Shown: positions 22,996-55,043, numbered from the stretch's first letter. The stretch: DNA of 64,000 nucleotides from Thermoactinomycetaceae bacterium (GCA_025449975.1 JANWIG010000025.1:1-64000); one strand, 5' to 3'. A program made the numbers and translations. Notes: a model not told the origin generated them from the sequence alone.

Positions 22996-23275
22996 ATAAA
23001 AAAACCTTTCATCTTCACATCTTCGCCAAGGAAGAGTGAGGGACGAAAGGTTCGTGGTGCCACCCTCATTTGTTGCTCGCTCACGCAAAGCAACCTTAAT
23101 AGGTCGATGACCTGAATGATAACGGTATAACCGGGTTTGCCTACTTCGATTTCAACAAACCGCTCCGGAGTGCTCCACATGGGTCAACTGCCGATTTTCA
23201 CCAACCATCGGCTCTCTAGGAGTTTGACACTCATGTTTGGCTCCATCATCACTGTGGCTAGTTAAATTTTTTTTT
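22996..23275 (-). promoter_or_regulatory. T-box riboswitch, probably serine-specific
   Basis: On the minus strand the leader contains the conserved T-box sequence AGGGTGGCACCACG (within 23053-23066), the stem I motifs GAGAG and GGTTGGTG, and a terminator with arms GAAAGGTT-type (23045-23052 and 23003-23010) followed by TTTTTTT. The antiterminator bulge sequence overlaps the terminator 5' arm as expected. In the probable specifier loop the codon AGC (Ser) appears in GGAGCACTCC, which fits the serine genes downstream. Uncharged tRNA-Ser would promote read-through. Class is certain; specificity is inferred. Confidence 0.9.
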
Positions 23276-41007: not shown

Positions 41008-42486
41008 GTGGAAAAAGTAGATATCTTGAAAGATATTGCCGAACGGACTGGAGGAGACATTTACTTAGGTGTGGTCGGTGCGGTGCGCACCGGAAAATCA
41101 ACATTTATTAAACGTTTTATGGAACAAGTGGTAATCCCAAATATTCGTGATGAAGCCGAACGGATACGTGCTACAGACGAGCTTCCACAAAGTGGCGCAG
41201 GAAAGACGATCACGACCATCGAACCCAAATTTGTTCCAAATCAAGCAGTCAATCTCCAGGTCGATGAAGGACTAGATGTGAACATGCGCCTTGTCGATTG
41301 CGTTGGATATGCGATTGATGGCGCGAAAGGCTATGAAGATGAAAATGGACCGCGCATGATCAACACCCCTTGGTTTGATGAACCGATTCCATTTCAGGAA
41401 GCAGCAGAAGTAGGAACCAGGAAAGTGATTCAAGATCATTCCACGATCGGGATCGTCGTATCGACAGATGGTTCCATTACCGATATCCCGCGTTCTTCTT
41501 ATGAGGAAATAGAGGAGCGAGTCATCAATGAGCTAAAAGAACTGGGGAAACCGTTTATCTTATTGTTAAATAGCACAAACCCCTATGGTGAACAAGCTCA
41601 AGCTTTACGAGGAGAGTTGGCAGAAAAGTATGATATCCCAGTCATTGCGCTCAGCGTAGCAACGATGGGAGAAGACGAGATTCTCGGAGTGATGCGTGAA
41701 GCATTATTTGAATTCCCCGTTCATGAAGTCAATGTGAACTTGCCCAGCTGGGTAATGGTATTAAATGAGGATCATTGGCTACGTCGGGAGTTCGAAAGCG
41801 CTGTTCGCGAAACCGTTCAAGATATTAAACGGCTTCGTGATGTGGATCGGGTAGTCAGTCAATTTTTACAATTTGACTTTATCGAACATGCTGCTTTATC
41901 TGGAATGGACATGGGACACGGAGTAGCGGAGATCGATCTCATGGCTCCAGACGAGCTCTATGATCAGATTCTAACCGAAGTCGTCGGTGTCGAAATCAAA
42001 GGAAAAGACCATCTTCTTGAGCTTATGCAAGATTTTGCGATCGCCAAGCGAGAATATGATAAAGTAGCGGATGCTTTAAAAATGGTGCGTACTACTGGCT
42101 ATGGCGTCGCTGCTCCATCGGTTGAAGAAATGACCTTGGATGAACCGGAGCTAATCAAACAAGGACCGCGCTTTGGCGTTCGCCTAAAAGCAACGGCTCC
42201 ATCGATCCATATGGTACGAGTCAACGTGCAATCCGAATTTGCTCCGATCATCGGATCGGAACGGCAAAGTGAAGAACTTGTTAACTACTTAATGAAAGAC
42301 TTTGAAAATGATCCACTGCGCATCTGGGAATCGGACATTTTTGGTCGTTCCCTCAACTCCATCGTTCGCGAAGGAATTCAAGCCAAACTCTCCATGATGC
42401 CAGAGAATGCCCGCTTTAAACTACAGGAAACTCTCGAACGAATTATTAACGAAGGCTCTGGAGGTCTCATTGCTATTATTTTATAA
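41008..42486 (+). CDS. spoIVA: Stage IV sporulation protein A (spore coat basement ATPase)
   Basis: A 492-aa mother-cell protein that hydrolyses ATP to polymerise into the basement layer of the spore coat. The Walker A motif GAVRTGKST (residues 24-32) and the Walker B-like VDCVGYAI are visible; the C-terminal end LIAIIL is the conserved tail needed for localisation in B. subtilis SpoIVA. The GTG start follows AAGGAGGG. The length equals the family norm. Its neighbours, hbs downstream and yphF upstream, match B. subtilis. Confidence 0.97.
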   Translation: MEKVDILKDIAERTGGDIYLGVVGAVRTGKSTFIKRFMEQVVIPNIRDEAERIRATDELPQSGAGKTITTIEPKFVPNQAVNLQVDEGLDVNMRLVDCVGYAIDGAKGYEDENGPRMINTPWFDEPIPFQEAAEVGTRKVIQDHSTIGIVVSTDGSITDIPRSSYEEIEERVINELKELGKPFILLLNSTNPYGEQAQALRGELAEKYDIPVIALSVATMGEDEILGVMREALFEFPVHEVNVNLPSWVMVLNEDHWLRREFESAVRETVQDIKRLRDVDRVVSQFLQFDFIEHAALSGMDMGHGVAEIDLMAPDELYDQILTEVVGVEIKGKDHLLELMQDFAIAKREYDKVADALKMVRTTGYGVAAPSVEEMTLDEPELIKQGPRFGVRLKATAPSIHMVRVNVQSEFAPIIGSERQSEELVNYLMKDFENDPLRIWESDIFGRSLNSIVREGIQAKLSMMPENARFKLQETLERIINEGSGGLIAIIL

Positions 42487-42822: not shown

Positions 42823-42966
42823 ATGAACAAAACAGATCTAATCAATAAAGTAGCTAAAGCAACCGGCAAGTCCAAAAAGGATGCCACACTAGCAGTAGAA
42901 GCAGTCTTTGGAGCAATCACTGAAGCTTTGCGTGATGGGAACAAAGTACAATTAATCGGGTTCGGC
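42823..42966 (+). CDS. hbs: DNA-binding protein HU, exon 1 (codons 1-48)
   Basis: Exon 1 encodes residues 1-48 of the nucleoid protein HU, from MNKTDLINKVAKATGKSKKD to QLIGFG. HU is a small dimeric protein that bends and compacts DNA. AGGAGGTG precedes the ATG. The coding frame stops being HU at 42967, where GTGCGCCCG starts a group II intron; reading on would add only two residues (VRP includes one past GFG) and a stop. Joining to 44977-45027 and 47134-47280 restores a 113-aa protein collinear with Bacillus HU: exon 1, then NFEVRERAERKGRNPQT, then GAEITIAATRVPAFKPGK and a lysine-rich tail about 20 residues longer than usual. Both junctions are phase 0. Position between spoIVA and folE (mtrA) is that of hbs in B. 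subtilis. Confidence 0.95.
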
Positions 42967-43251
42967 GTGCGCCCGTAAGGCTTTTGTAGAAATGCCGAAA
43001 GGCTAGGAGAAAAGCTGCTCCTATTACCACTGACCTCATCTCGGACCGAAAGGAAAGAGGGAGTGTAGCATGGTCAGAAAGGCATAAGTCAACTTCGCTG
43101 CCAAAGTTGCGACTGAATGCCGAGGTAAGGACAAACAGATAAGGTGAAGGCTTGGATTAGCTTGAAGCTCAGCACTGGTGGGATAAACCGATCCCCCTTA
43201 TCGTTGGCAGTATTTAGATAAGGTCTGCGAAAGCTCCTTGGAAGGAGATTG

Positions 43252-43280
43252 TAGTTGCCTCATTGCCGAAGGGGTGGCTA
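43252..43280 (+). other. EBS1 hairpin of intron 1
   Basis: Stem TAGTTGCCTC / GGGGTGGCTA (all pairs Watson-Crick or G-T) closes a 9-nt loop ATTGCCGAA. The last six loop bases pair perfectly with the exon 1 end TTCGGC. Intron 2 has the same layout. Confidence 0.75.
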
Positions 43281-43497
43281 TCAGCTTTGAAACCGCAGAA
43301 CCATCTCCAATGGAGAATTGTGTGCGAACGAGACACCTAAGTCTGTTTATCGTTCTACAAAAAGCTAAACGGGGATTACCTAAGTGGAATTTTCCATATG
43401 GTAACGGAGTTCCCATAGTAGTCCGCGCTAGGGAAAGCCTAGTACATGGCGAAGGGGAACAGCTGCTAATGGCTTGAAAGTACCGAGGGGGTATCGA

Positions 43498-44781
43498 ATG
43501 ATGCAAAAGCCCGAGGAACTGCTCAAGATACTATCTACGAATACAGTTCGAAACGATGGAAAGTGGAGGCATAAAGACCTTTATCGCCAACTTTACAACC
43601 CCGCGCTCTATCAGCTGGCTCGTCCAAAGTGGGGTTACCCAAAGATCGATCCGAACCGCTTATCAGCAATCATCTCACAACTGATCGCAGAACTTAGAAA
43701 CGAACAATATCAGCCGCAGCCCGCTAAACAACGTTCCTTTTCGGAGCGCTTTGCTCCTGTGATGATCGCTGATCAACTATTGCAACTGGCGATCAAACGG
43801 ATCTTAGAAAGCATTTATGACCCGCTCTTCTCTGAAGATAGCCATGGAGCCCGTTCCGGAAGAAACTGTCATACAGCCCTGTTACATATCCGAAAACAAT
43901 CGCGAGGCAAGATCTGGTGGATCACCGGTGAGCTAAACCCATCGATCCAGTCTTTCAATCATCATCTTCTCATTCAGCTGTTACAAAAGAAAATTAGAGA
44001 TGATCGGTTTCTTCGCTTAATCCGGAAATTTTTAAACGCGGGATTCCTTGAAGAATGGCACTCACCGTCTCCCTTGACCGGTCGCCTCCAAGGCGGTCTA
44101 CTCAGTCCCATTCTTCTCAATATCTATCTTCATGAGCTGGATCAATGGATCTTCGCTCAGGCGCGGGAGAATCGACAAGCGTATAGCCGTTATTTGGATA
44201 CTTGGATCATCGGATTTAAGGGTTCAAAAAAAGAGGCGATACAATTTCAGAAAACACTAAATCAATATTTACATGAGCAACTACAGCTGAACGTGACCGA
44301 TGAGATGAAATTATACCATGGTAAAAAAGGGGTTCCCTTTCTCGGTTATCAGCTTGCGTATGCCAAATCCCCAACCAATCATGCTTCAGAGGGACCTATC
44401 TATCAACTATGGATGCCGAAACGCAAAGAGTTTGAATTTATCTTAGAATATGGTTTGGGCAAACTGGAAGCGGGTCAGTGGAAAGCACTTGCTGTCAAAA
44501 AGCTTTTTATGCAGGATGATCAGACGATTATCAACTGGTATAATGCTACTTTCCGTCGGTTGTATGACCATTATCAATTGGCAACCAATGTATCGCGGTT
44601 GCGCTCGGCTCGGTGGATTTGGAAATTGAGTTGGGGTAAAACCATGGCGAATAAATATCGGACACAAAAAGCAAAGATCTTTGCAAAATATCGGATCGGC
44701 AAACGGATCGGCGTGAAGCATCAAGGGATGATTACCTACCTGTTTGATGAATCCTTGCGAAAGCAAAGCGATGCTTACTAG
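43498..44781 (+). CDS. Group II intron maturase with inactivated reverse-transcriptase site (intron 1)
   Basis: A 427-aa intron-encoded protein starting at an ATG preceded by GAGGGGG. It keeps the RT fold landmarks SEDSHGARSGRNCHTAL, LQGGLLSPILLNIYLHELD and the C-terminal maturase X domain (INWYNATFRRLYDHYQLA ... WGKTMANKYRTQKAKIF, residues about 343-395). Key catalytic residues are changed: the first RT aspartate is E145 (TGELNPSI instead of GDIKGxFD) and the YADD box reads Y232-L-D-T235. No HNH endonuclease or DNA-binding domain follows. It should assist splicing of its own intron, and perhaps intron 2, but not reverse transcribe. Confidence 0.9.
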   Translation: MMQKPEELLKILSTNTVRNDGKWRHKDLYRQLYNPALYQLARPKWGYPKIDPNRLSAIISQLIAELRNEQYQPQPAKQRSFSERFAPVMIADQLLQLAIKRILESIYDPLFSEDSHGARSGRNCHTALLHIRKQSRGKIWWITGELNPSIQSFNHHLLIQLLQKKIRDDRFLRLIRKFLNAGFLEEWHSPSPLTGRLQGGLLSPILLNIYLHELDQWIFAQARENRQAYSRYLDTWIIGFKGSKKEAIQFQKTLNQYLHEQLQLNVTDEMKLYHGKKGVPFLGYQLAYAKSPTNHASEGPIYQLWMPKRKEFEFILEYGLGKLEAGQWKALAVKKLFMQDDQTIINWYNATFRRLYDHYQLATNVSRLRSARWIWKLSWGKTMANKYRTQKAKIFAKYRIGKRIGVKHQGMITYLFDESLRKQSDAY

Positions 44782-44884
44782 CGTGTTTCGCGATGCAATT
44801 GAAGTCAGTTTGTCGCCTTTCGTTATGCCACGGTCCACTCTTCATCTTCATTGTTTTCATAGATAGTAGAAGATTGGCAGCGGA

Positions 44885-44918
44885 GAGCCGTATACGCTGA
44901 AAGGTGTACGTACGGTTC
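44885..44918 (+). other. Domain V of intron 1
   Basis: A 34-nt hairpin beginning GAGCCGTATACGC, with a GAAA tetraloop and ending GTACGGTTC; the AGC/GTT catalytic triad pair region and two-nt bulge position are typical of bacterial group II introns. Confidence 0.92.
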
Positions 44919-44976
44919 GGAGGGAAGAGCATGGAAACCTGCTTACGCTCGGCAAGGCGCTGTGTTCTTACCCTAC

Positions 44977-45027
44977 AACTTTGAAGTACGTGAACGTGCA
45001 GAAAGAAAAGGGCGTAATCCACAAACT
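44977..45027 (+). CDS. hbs: DNA-binding protein HU, exon 2 (17-codon mini-exon)
   Basis: These 51 nt encode exactly NFEVRERAERKGRNPQT, HU residues 49-65, which form the beta-strands leading into the DNA-binding arm. They lie between the CCCTAC end of intron 1 and the GTGCG start of intron 2. There is no start or stop codon and no other function in this piece; by itself it would not be found by ordinary gene callers. Its near-perfect conservation argues that the split gene is still expressed. Confidence 0.95.
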
Positions 45028-45331
45028 GTGCGCGCTGATCAGCTGCTTGTCTAACCTCAAAAAGGGAAGCAGCTCGTCCAATTAGAAAAGTGGCATAAGG
45101 CACCACATGATCCGGTAGATGATCATAGGTTGCTCTTCTTACCCTGTAGGGAAACCGATCAGGGGACCATAGCATGAAGAGAAAGCTCCAAGTTAAACGA
45201 ACTCACCGTTTACGACTGAGGAGCGAAACCAAGTTGACATGAGGATAAAAGCCAGACTGCTTGAAGGATAACTCGACGGCTTTGGATTGGCAGATGGGTT
45301 ACGTGAGGAATATTCCCATCTCCTGCTAAGG

Positions 45332-45354
45332 TTTCTGTACCAGTTTGACAGAAA
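45332..45354 (+). other. EBS1 hairpin of intron 2
   Basis: Stem TTTCTGT / ACAGAAA closes a 9-nt loop ACCAGTTTG whose last six bases pair with the exon 2 end CAAACT. Loop size and register equal those of intron 1. Confidence 0.78.
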
Positions 45355-45598
45355 TCATCTACCTAAGAGCAGGCGAGCGTTCGATCGGAACGAAACGAGT
45401 GGAAGTCCTATCCGACAGTCAACAGGCCTAGTCTAATTGGGCAACGGCGGATCACCTAAGTTAGCCAGACGATTTTAAAGTTGGCTAATAGGGTGACGGA
45501 GTCTTCATAGTAGTCCGAGGTAGGGAAAGCCTACTACATGGCGAAGGAAGACAGTTTGGGAAGTACAAAACAAGTCCAGAGGGAGCGTGTGAGACGCT

Positions 45599-46852
45599 AT
45601 GAGGAACTTTGAAACTGTTTTGTACAACTTAGCCAAGCAGGCGAAAAACAGGGAGTATCGATTTGAAAGACTGATTCGCCTTCTCTACAATCCAGACTTT
45701 TATCGCAAAGCATCTCGTTGGACTAGCTCCATGCAGAAAATAGATTATGCCGAGCTTGTCCCCTTGATTGAAGCGCTAAAAAGCGAAAGCTATGCATCGG
45801 ATCCCAAAGAAATCGATCCAATCAAGGATCAACTGGTACAAGAAGCGATCCGAATCATCTTGGAGACCATTTATGAACCGATCTTTAGCAAGCACTCGCA
45901 CGGATTTCGGCGAGCGAGAAGCTGTCATACCGCTCTTCAGGAGATTGATGCGCTGTTCACTGGAACCAAGTGGTGGATCAAAGGCGATCTGCAAGAGGCT
46001 TTGTCGCATCTTTCACATCATCGTTTGCTTCAAATCTTGCAGAAGCGGATCAAGGATCAAAAATTTCTCAGACTGCTTTCAAAACTACTCTTCCGGGGAG
46101 TCCATACTGACTGGAAGGATGGGAAGCGCTTCTCGGGAGTGCGTTTAGGAGGCATTCTCAGTCCGATTCTGTCCAACATCTATTTGCACGAACTGGATCA
46201 GTTTGTAACCGACTTATCTCGCCAAAAAGGAGAGCGTTTTCCGAAAATCCGTTATGTGCGTTATGCCGATCAATTTTTGCTTGGGATCGTCGGGACCAAA
46301 AGCGATGCCGAGCGGCTCAGCCAGGAAATCGCTCATTGGCTGAAGGATGAATTGAGAATCGAGCCTTGTGACCTGGCGCTCCAATGGATTCATCATTCGC
46401 AGGCGATTCGATTCCTCGGATATGAGATCCAAGTGCGGGCGGATGGCAAAATGCGTTTTTCTATGCCGAAAGAAACGAGCATCCAATGGCTCCGTGAAAA
46501 TCAAATGATTGCGTTTCAAAAGGATGGGAGATGGAAACCGGTAGCGAAAGATGCCTGGGTTCATTTGCCTGATCCGGATCTCCTCAACCGTTATAATCGG
46601 CTGCTGACGCGAATCCATCACCATTTTTCACTGGCTGACAATCTCTATCGGCAGATGAGCACCATAAAGTATGCGATGGAGTACAGTTGTCTTTGTACCC
46701 TTGCCAAAAAACATAAAAGTTCGGTCAGGGCGTTAAGAAAGAAACTAAGCCGCGGAAAAGAGTGGGGGATCAAGCAGTGGACAGCCGAAGGGGAAAAATG
46801 GATCAGCATCTCTTATGTACCCGATGCAAAGAAAAGGATGAAATCAGTTTGA
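45599..46852 (+). CDS. Group II intron maturase with inactivated reverse-transcriptase site (intron 2)
   Basis: A 417-aa protein. RT landmarks include SKHSHGFRRARSCHTAL and GGILSPILSNIYLHELDQ; the X domain spans about residues 320-380 (LNRYNRLLTRIHHHFSLADN ... LAKKHKSSVRALRKK). D130 of the first RT motif remains (KGDLQEAL), but the YADD box reads Y222-A-D-Q225 and the PQGG motif has become RLGG (182-185). There is no endonuclease domain. The ATG at 45599 has a GAGGGAG 16 nt upstream, an unusually long gap containing a small GCGT/ACGC hairpin. It is a distant paralogue of the intron 1 protein. Confidence 0.9.
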   Translation: MRNFETVLYNLAKQAKNREYRFERLIRLLYNPDFYRKASRWTSSMQKIDYAELVPLIEALKSESYASDPKEIDPIKDQLVQEAIRIILETIYEPIFSKHSHGFRRARSCHTALQEIDALFTGTKWWIKGDLQEALSHLSHHRLLQILQKRIKDQKFLRLLSKLLFRGVHTDWKDGKRFSGVRLGGILSPILSNIYLHELDQFVTDLSRQKGERFPKIRYVRYADQFLLGIVGTKSDAERLSQEIAHWLKDELRIEPCDLALQWIHHSQAIRFLGYEIQVRADGKMRFSMPKETSIQWLRENQMIAFQKDGRWKPVAKDAWVHLPDPDLLNRYNRLLTRIHHHFSLADNLYRQMSTIKYAMEYSCLCTLAKKHKSSVRALRKKLSRGKEWGIKQWTAEGEKWISISYVPDAKKRMKSV

Positions 46853-47038
46853 TCCTGTCCAATCGATGAGTATGCAACTCGCAGCGATTGGAGAAAAAGT
46901 TGTTTACTTTGCTGTGAAGTCGGAATAACAACGGGGGTTTCATACTCATCATGTAGACAAACATGTTAATTAGAAAGTAATACCGAGACTTCCTGTTGAG
47001 AGCGATTTTTAGGCTTGGCTAAGGGAGTACCAAACGGA

Positions 47039-47072
47039 GAGCCGGATGCATGGAGACATGCTTGTCCGGTTC
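47039..47072 (+). other. Domain V of intron 2
   Basis: A 34-nt hairpin beginning GAGCCGGATGCATG, GAGA tetraloop, ending GTCCGGTTC; same length and bulge position as domain V of intron 1. Confidence 0.92.
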
Positions 47073-47133
47073 GGAGGGGGAAACCAGGAATCCGGTTGAT
47101 CACATAACGATCGGCGCTTGGTTTCTACCCTAC

Positions 47134-47280
47134 GGTGCGGAAATTACGATTGCAGCAACCAGAGTCCCTGCATTTAAACCAGGTAAACAGTTAAAGGAAG
47201 AAGTGAATAAAGGAGCTGCTGCTCTAAAAGCAAAGAAAAACGAAAAAGAAGAGGCAGCTAAAAAAGATTCGACTAAGTAA
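47134..47280 (+). CDS. hbs: DNA-binding protein HU, exon 3 (codons 66-113)
   Basis: Encodes GAEITIAATRVPAFKPGKQL, the end of the HU beta-arm and the last helix, followed by a lysine- and alanine-rich tail (ALKAKKNEKEEAAKK). The tail makes this HU about 20 residues longer than the 92-aa B. subtilis protein; such tails occur in some HU proteins and may add DNA contacts. A terminator follows 12 nt after the stop codon. Confidence 0.94.
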   Translation, partial: GAEITIAATRVPAFKPGKQLKEEVNKGAAALKAKKNEKEEAAKKDSTK

Positions 47281-48218: not shown

Positions 48219-48295
48219 CGGGCTATGGCGCAGCTTGGTAGCGCGCTTGCATGGGGCGCAAGAGGTCGTCAGTTCAAATCTGGCTAGCCCGACCA
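48219..48295 (+). tRNA. tRNA-Pro (anticodon GGG), CCA encoded
   Basis: The acceptor stem CGGGCTA / TAGCCCG closes a normal cloverleaf: D arm GCGCAGCTTGGTAGCGC, anticodon stem CTTGC / GCAAG with loop ATGGGGC, T arm with GTTCAAATC. Loop position gives anticodon GGG, reading CCC and CCU. The CCA end is encoded. It has its own promoter and terminator. Confidence 0.95.
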
Positions 48296-54873: not shown

Positions 54874-55043
54874 TCTCTTATCCAGAGTGGCGGAGGGACT
54901 GGCCCAATGAAGCCCGGCAACCTTTGATATCTTTCTAGATATTGATTGGTGCTAATTCCAGCAGGATTTTATTCCTGGAAGATAAGAGAGGAAGATGACT
55001 CTGAAAATGACCTCTTCTCTTATCTGTGAGAAGAGGTTTTTTA
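54874..55043 (+). promoter_or_regulatory. SAM-I riboswitch (S box) of metI-metC
   Basis: P1 is CTCTTATC (54875-54882) / GATAAGAG (54981-54988). Conserved core: AGAGTGGCGGAGGGA (kink-turn and P2), TGAAGCCCGGCAACC and GGTGCTAATTCCAGCAGG. The expression platform is a terminator ACCTCTTCTC / GAGAAGAGGT with T-run (55010-55042) whose 5' part can pair with P1's 3' side to give an antiterminator. High SAM should stop transcription. Confidence 0.97.

Follow-up and report, generated by a model that had tools for sequence, protein, structure and literature searches.

Reverse transcriptase-defective maturases of two group II introns in a bacterial HU gene are probably retained for splicing

The hbs gene, which encodes HU, of a Thermoflavimicrobium relative (order Thermoactinomycetales) consists of three exons and two group II introns, and each intron encodes an LtrA-like protein (IEP1 and IEP2) with substitutions in the reverse transcriptase (RT) active site. 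Our analysis makes it very probable that the RT active sites of these two LtrA-type introns have decayed, while the proteins were kept as splicing maturases. We studied the window, i.e. the whole stretch of 64,000 nucleotides, together with the draft assembly from which it derives (2.52 Mb, 70 contigs, 97.7% complete; G000) and related genomes including those of the congeners Thermoflavimicrobium dichotomicum (G001) and T. daqui (G002).

Results

The split hbs gene and its ribozymes

In the window, hbs lies between spoIVA (41008-42486) and folE (from 47439), and comprises the following features:

42823..42966, + strand: hbs exon 1, codons 1-48, ending in ..LIGFG
42961..42966, + strand: IBS1 of intron 1, TTCGGC, 6/6 Watson-Crick pairs with EBS1
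42967..44976, + strand: group II intron 1, GTGCGCCCG...CTTACCCTAC, 2010 nt, phase 0; RF00029 match, exon frame restored
43265..43270, + strand: EBS1 of intron 1, GCCGAA, intron position 299
43498..44781, + strand: IEP1, LtrA-like maturase, 427 aa, stop included; E145 and YLDT (232-235), RT-defective by sequence
44883..44976, + strand: domains V and VI of intron 1, RF00029 64.1 bits; bulged A at 44970 (-7) in the fold
44977..45027, + strand: hbs exon 2, 51 nt, NFEVRERAERKGRNPQT
45022..45027, + strand: IBS1 of intron 2, CAAACT, 6/6 pairs with EBS1
45028..47133, + strand: group II intron 2, GTGCGCGCT...TCTACCCTAC, 2106 nt, phase 0; RF00029 match, exon frame restored
45342..45347, + strand: EBS1 of intron 2, AGTTTG, intron position 315
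45599..46852, + strand: IEP2, LtrA-like maturase, 417 aa, stop included; RLGG, YADQ (222-225), D130 kept
47037..47133, + strand: domains V and VI of intron 2, RF00029 59.5 bits; bulged A at 47127 (-7) in the fold
47134..47280, + strand: hbs exon 3, GAEITIAATRVPAFKPGKQ..., stop included

Both introns are of the LtrA (ML) type. They start with GTGCG, end with CTAC and are inserted between codons, and they carry the 5' GUGYG, the 3' AY and the domains V/VI of group II introns, which adopt a normal fold in which an A bulges out seven bases from the 3' end. The EBS1-IBS1 pairing is complete (6/6) in four introns of the genome, with EBS1 at position 299 in intron 1, 315 in intron 2, 309 in an intron of a second HU gene (HU2) and 279 in a soj intron; in shuffled windows, four such pairings have a joint probability of about 6e-8. 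Exon and EBS1 also change together, as TTCGGC/GCCGAA in intron 1 versus TTTGGT/ACCAAA in the HU2 intron.

Joining the exons in silico yields a complete, normal HU of 113 residues, which is 86% identical to the HU of T. dichotomicum, whose gene has no intron; the same operation also restores HU2 and RecA. Exon 2 is in frame, and its skipping would give an HU shortened by 17 residues. HU is known to be essential from Bacillus subtilis. A gene search of the assembly found two HU genes, and since both are split, HU requires splicing; with the assembly 97.7% complete, a third HU gene or an intact RT may lie in the missing part. Elsewhere in the window, Rfam models matched a T-box leader (23036-23258, - strand), a tRNA gene (48219-48292, + strand) and a SAM riboswitch (54875-54988, + strand).

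The two intron-encoded proteins

Residues are numbered from the ATG at 43498 for IEP1 and at 45599 for IEP2. The original prediction held that both proteins have lost catalytic residues. All the substitutions it named are real, but IEP2 turned out to lack just one of the three catalytic aspartates. In IEP1, YLDT stands in place of YADD at exactly residues 232-235, T235 being aligned with the second YADD Asp of LtrA, and G144-E145 (GELN) aligns with the motif A Asp of LtrA, a conservative D to E change. In IEP2, the YADD box reads YADQ at exactly 222-225 with Q225 at the second Asp, and RLGG replaces PQGG at residues 182-185. New with respect to the prediction are the LQGG for PQGG in IEP1, and the motif A Asp (GDLQ, D130) and first YADD Asp that IEP2 keeps. 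Hence, the catalytic Asp triad of an active retromobile protein is incomplete in both. To our knowledge, all three aspartates are needed in the RTs that have been studied, and for this reason IEP1 is very likely, and IEP2 likely, to be RT-dead, judging from their sequences. Since IEP2 keeps two of the three residues and the motif A change of IEP1 is conservative, the sequences are also compatible with residual RT activity.

The remaining features claimed for the proteins were all recovered. No endonuclease family matched either of them, the X domain is kept (PF01348 38.3 bits in IEP1 and 63.1 in IEP2; Pfam cut-off 20.8), and the reading frames run uninterrupted through 427 and 417 codons, with 11 to 31 stops in each of the other five frames. 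With NCBI TIGR04416, the proteins score 138 and 153 bits, under the curated cut-off of 300 bits. AlphaFold2 models both as whole RT-plus-thumb proteins (IEP1: pLDDT 85, pTM 0.82; IEP2: pLDDT 84, pTM 0.81), and the best structural match of IEP1 is LtrA in the group II intron complex (8h2h_D, Z 28.4, rmsd 2.9, 416 residues). Lost catalytic residues, an open frame and an X domain, by which RT-dead maturases are recognised, thus occur together in both proteins, and hbs fits the essential or housekeeping host gene of such maturases.

Other group II introns of the genome

Five group II introns of the assembly exceed the Rfam cut-off, namely the two in hbs and three others:

C1:95088-95927: HU2 intron (L099), 840 nt, ORF-less; site GFG/NF, the same as for hbs intron 1
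C26:54830-56709: soj/parA intron (L063), site GGVG/KTTT; third LtrA-like protein, YADD replaced by WGEE, highly eroded
C38:100945-101853: recA intron (L101), 909 nt, ORF-less

A weak RF00029 match (C25:75568-75691, 23.8 bits) was left uncounted. The four LtrA-type introns have all diverged from one another. Intron 1 and the HU2 intron resemble each other most, sharing 73.5% identity over their 5' parts and 83% over their 3' parts, as compared with 51-55% and 65-73% for the other pairs, and by this sequence identity the HU2 intron is the sister of intron 1. It may contain a remnant of the start region of an intron-encoded protein. The domain V of the recA intron differs from that of the other four introns. 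No intron-encoded protein related to the recA intron was found in the genome, and this intron may self-splice or borrow a maturase.

The three maturases of the genome are each RT-defective by sequence. Searches of the assembly with RVT_1, TIGR04416 and the X-domain model Intron_maturas2 returned only these three proteins, all under the NCBI cut-off. The intact active homologue elsewhere in the genome that would speak against the original prediction was therefore not found.

Related introns across the Thermoactinomycetales

Loss of catalytic residues is widespread among the relatives of these proteins. A catalytic Asp is missing from 32 of 36 related LtrA-type intron proteins (in soj, mutS, nrdB, hbs and other genes), whereas all 11 control intron RTs, which come from relatives in the order and class and were returned by the same searches, keep (Y/F)ADD and none lacks a catalytic Asp. 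All catalytic motifs are retained in the other four: two in lytic transglycosylase genes, one in soj of Shimazuella soli and one of Dictyobacter vulcani. A group II RT over the NCBI cut-off was present in just 4 of the 22 order genomes tested.

The soj gene is split at exactly NQKGGVG/KTTT in 20 of the 42 order genomes; related soj loci were collected by an exact junction pattern, a mixed alignment of the intron-encoded proteins having given no conserved stretch. Related introns also occur in mutS (G002, G006, G011 and G018; ORF-less in G016) and in nrdB (G016). YADD reads YAGD in the nrdB protein, which has an intact motif A, and the mutS protein of T. daqui (G002) has lost motif A with YADD intact, so that independent RT losses are clearer in these two proteins than in those of hbs. 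ORF-less introns were seen in mutS of G016 (L106) and in a lytic transglycosylase gene of T. daqui (L105), and all LtrA-type proteins of both genomes are RT-defective. Another soj intron without a long ORF (L114, G009:C1:453000-458000) belongs to a genome rich in other group II introns. The P-loop site GGVG/KTTT of soj is also split in Clostridium, Heliorestis, Ktedonobacteria and several MAGs, where some maturases are intact and others, at the opposite extreme, can no longer be recognised in the RT part (L121, L140, L124, L127, L132, L136, L122, L128, L129, L138).

The soj proteins form one clade (100/100) that includes Chloroflexota and Clostridium members, which means that this lineage formerly moved between phyla. 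Soj gene and intron topologies agree weakly (Mantel rho 0.29, p 0.005); given this weak agreement and the lack of the intron in some congeners, a deep vertical descent of the soj intron was set aside. IEP1 and IEP2, both long-branched, grouped in 30% of bootstraps in one tree and in 59% in another, and they have lost different residues. INDEPENDENCE of the losses, i.e. two separate losses in hbs, is plausible. Each intron required RT activity for its insertion, in cis or in trans.

Selection on the maturases and alternative explanations

Between closely related RT-dead soj maturases, codon substitution rates (NG86) were determined pairwise, excluding three Thermoflavimicrobium proteins with saturated synonymous sites. 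By domain, dN/dS was 0.19-0.38. The Kroppenstedtia pair had 0.31 overall, with 0.38 in the RT part and 0.21 in X, the Thermoactinomyces and Baia maturases had 0.20-0.30, and the Laceyella pair had 0.29, a value from few changes with a wide interval. In these RT-dead proteins, purifying selection acts on X and on the RT-derived part alike, the latter presumably being kept for binding of the intron RNA. The relaxed selection over X that had been named as counter-evidence to the original prediction was not seen in these relatives, X having a low dN/dS as in Kroppenstedtia.

The prediction had also expected the RT part to decay while X is kept. This pattern applies to the soj maturases, in which RT evolves faster than X relative to intact proteins (Mann-Whitney p 0.0035), but not to the hbs proteins, whose RT/X branch ratios of 0.73 and 0.58 lie between the extremes seen in intact proteins (0.34-1.02). 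The divergence of RT and that of X have kept pace with each other in the hbs proteins.

It could be argued that IEP1 and IEP2 are decaying pseudogenes in self-splicing introns, with frames that are still open merely for lack of time. The genome does contain ORF-less introns (HU2, recA), and C.te.I1 of Clostridium tetani, according to a 2015 review the sole ORF-less intron without a related intron-encoded protein in its genome, self-splices without such a protein (PMC4424553). We nevertheless regard this explanation as improbable. The end branches of the hbs proteins amount to 1.67 and 1.40 changes per column, as opposed to 0.14-0.18 in four intact relatives, without any stop or frameshift, and the branches of the RT-dead soj proteins, which evolve under purifying selection, are also mostly longer than those of intact members. 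When point changes were placed at random at 5% of the sites, just 1-5% of the frames stayed open, and at 10% none did in 300 trials. Together with substitutions that fall on catalytic positions, the latter result argues against chance.

A second explanation, that both proteins are still active RTs with altered active sites and the introns still mobile, could draw on the two aspartates kept by IEP2 and on the RT fold, which is intact in the predicted structures. It is very unlikely, not only in view of the requirement for three aspartates in the RTs studied, but also because the divergence of the four LtrA-type introns gives no sign of recent copying and the HU introns occur in no other genome searched: orthologues of the hbs proteins were absent from 42 order genomes, and the HU junction pattern was absent from every other one of 398 phylum genomes. 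A plasmid search with the hbs proteins gave nothing above 60% identity.

Finally, the draft state of the assembly might suggest sequencing or assembly errors or contamination as the source of the RT defects, but this can hardly be credited, as each change is an in-frame substitution inside a long open frame, the spoIVA-hbs-folE order and the similarity of HU to that of the congeners fit the host, and changes of this class are found again in named strains that were sequenced separately.

Discussion

That maturases residing in an essential gene lost their RT function and were retained for splicing, as the original prediction proposed, is well supported by several lines of evidence: the search for an intact RT found none, the pattern is repeated in soj, mutS and nrdB, the soj maturases are under purifying selection, and the second HU gene harbours an ORF-less sister intron. 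According to this reading, two mobile LtrA-type introns would have inserted into hbs at separate sites 51 nt apart. As hbs is needed, they would persist only if precisely spliced, and with mobility no longer beneficial, the RT active sites would have decayed. IEP1 and IEP2 would each be made from the unspliced transcript and bind their own intron RNA via the RT-derived fingers/palm and the X/thumb domain, thereby stabilising the active ribozyme fold. The branch-point A would then attack the 5' splice site, held in place by the EBS1-IBS1 pairing, and joining of the exons would give the HU mRNA. From the sequence evidence, we infer that both proteins are inactive as RTs and that splicing is protein-assisted in vivo; the least certain element is that IEP1 may also serve the ORF-less HU2 intron in trans.

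Beyond hbs, we propose only tentatively that the Thermoactinomycetales possibly keep a lasting, non-mobile splicing system, in which selected RT-dead maturases act in soj, hbs, mutS and nrdB introns that are partly co-inherited with their host genes. If true, this would be a bacterial counterpart of MatK-dependent organellar splicing and an extant intermediate linking mobile group II introns to splicing that depends on the host. The genome studied here can make HU, RecA and Soj only by splicing, and its assembly contains no intact group II RT. RT loss has occurred again in many introns related to these, and several of the strains that carry them are named and deposited. The step from a selfish to a domesticated, host-dependent intron, which is thought to have preceded the spliceosome, would thereby become accessible to experiment.

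RT-dead, splicing-only maturases are textbook knowledge for plant organelles. A literature search on group II introns of Thermoactinomyces or Thermoactinomycetaceae, or on hbs introns, gave nothing relevant, which is weak evidence for novelty as most subscription journals were outside its scope. A recA intron of Geobacillus kaustophilus was reportedly described by Chee and Takami in 2005 (cited in PMC4424553); like the recA intron found here, it belongs to group II and interrupts a DNA-related housekeeping gene in a thermophile of the Bacillota, and the one in our genome is, set against it, ORF-less with 909 nt. In a 2022 survey of prokaryotic introns, the terms "YADD", "housekeeping" and "maturase" are absent from the text (PMC8919778).

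Among well-known systems, Ll.LtrB/LtrA of Lactococcus lactis provides the closest solved structure and sequence, and shares the domain order with the hbs proteins up to the start of the DNA-binding region. In contrast to them, LtrA combines an active RT with an endonuclease and belongs to a mobile intron of a relaxase gene. MatK of the chloroplast trnK intron in plants resembles the hbs proteins in the loss of RT, the retention of domain X and the essential host gene, and action on several introns has been proposed for it (PMC4424553). However, MatK is organellar and its RT motifs are far more eroded; it is approached more nearly by the soj maturases of Thermoactinomyces and Baia. According to a 2015 review, RT decay is rare in bacteria, the sole known example being O.i.I2 of Oceanobacillus iheyensis, an ML-class intron in radC (PMC4424553). 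It shares with the hbs introns the mitochondrial-like/LtrA class, the loss of YADD, an open frame and a cellular host gene. Unlike O. iheyensis, our genome has three such proteins, two of them in one gene, together with an ORF-less sister intron and order-wide relatives. Therefore, the hbs proteins belong to the known type of RT-dead maturases, and what is new is a genome in which the group II intron proteins found are all RT-defective, with relatives throughout the order.
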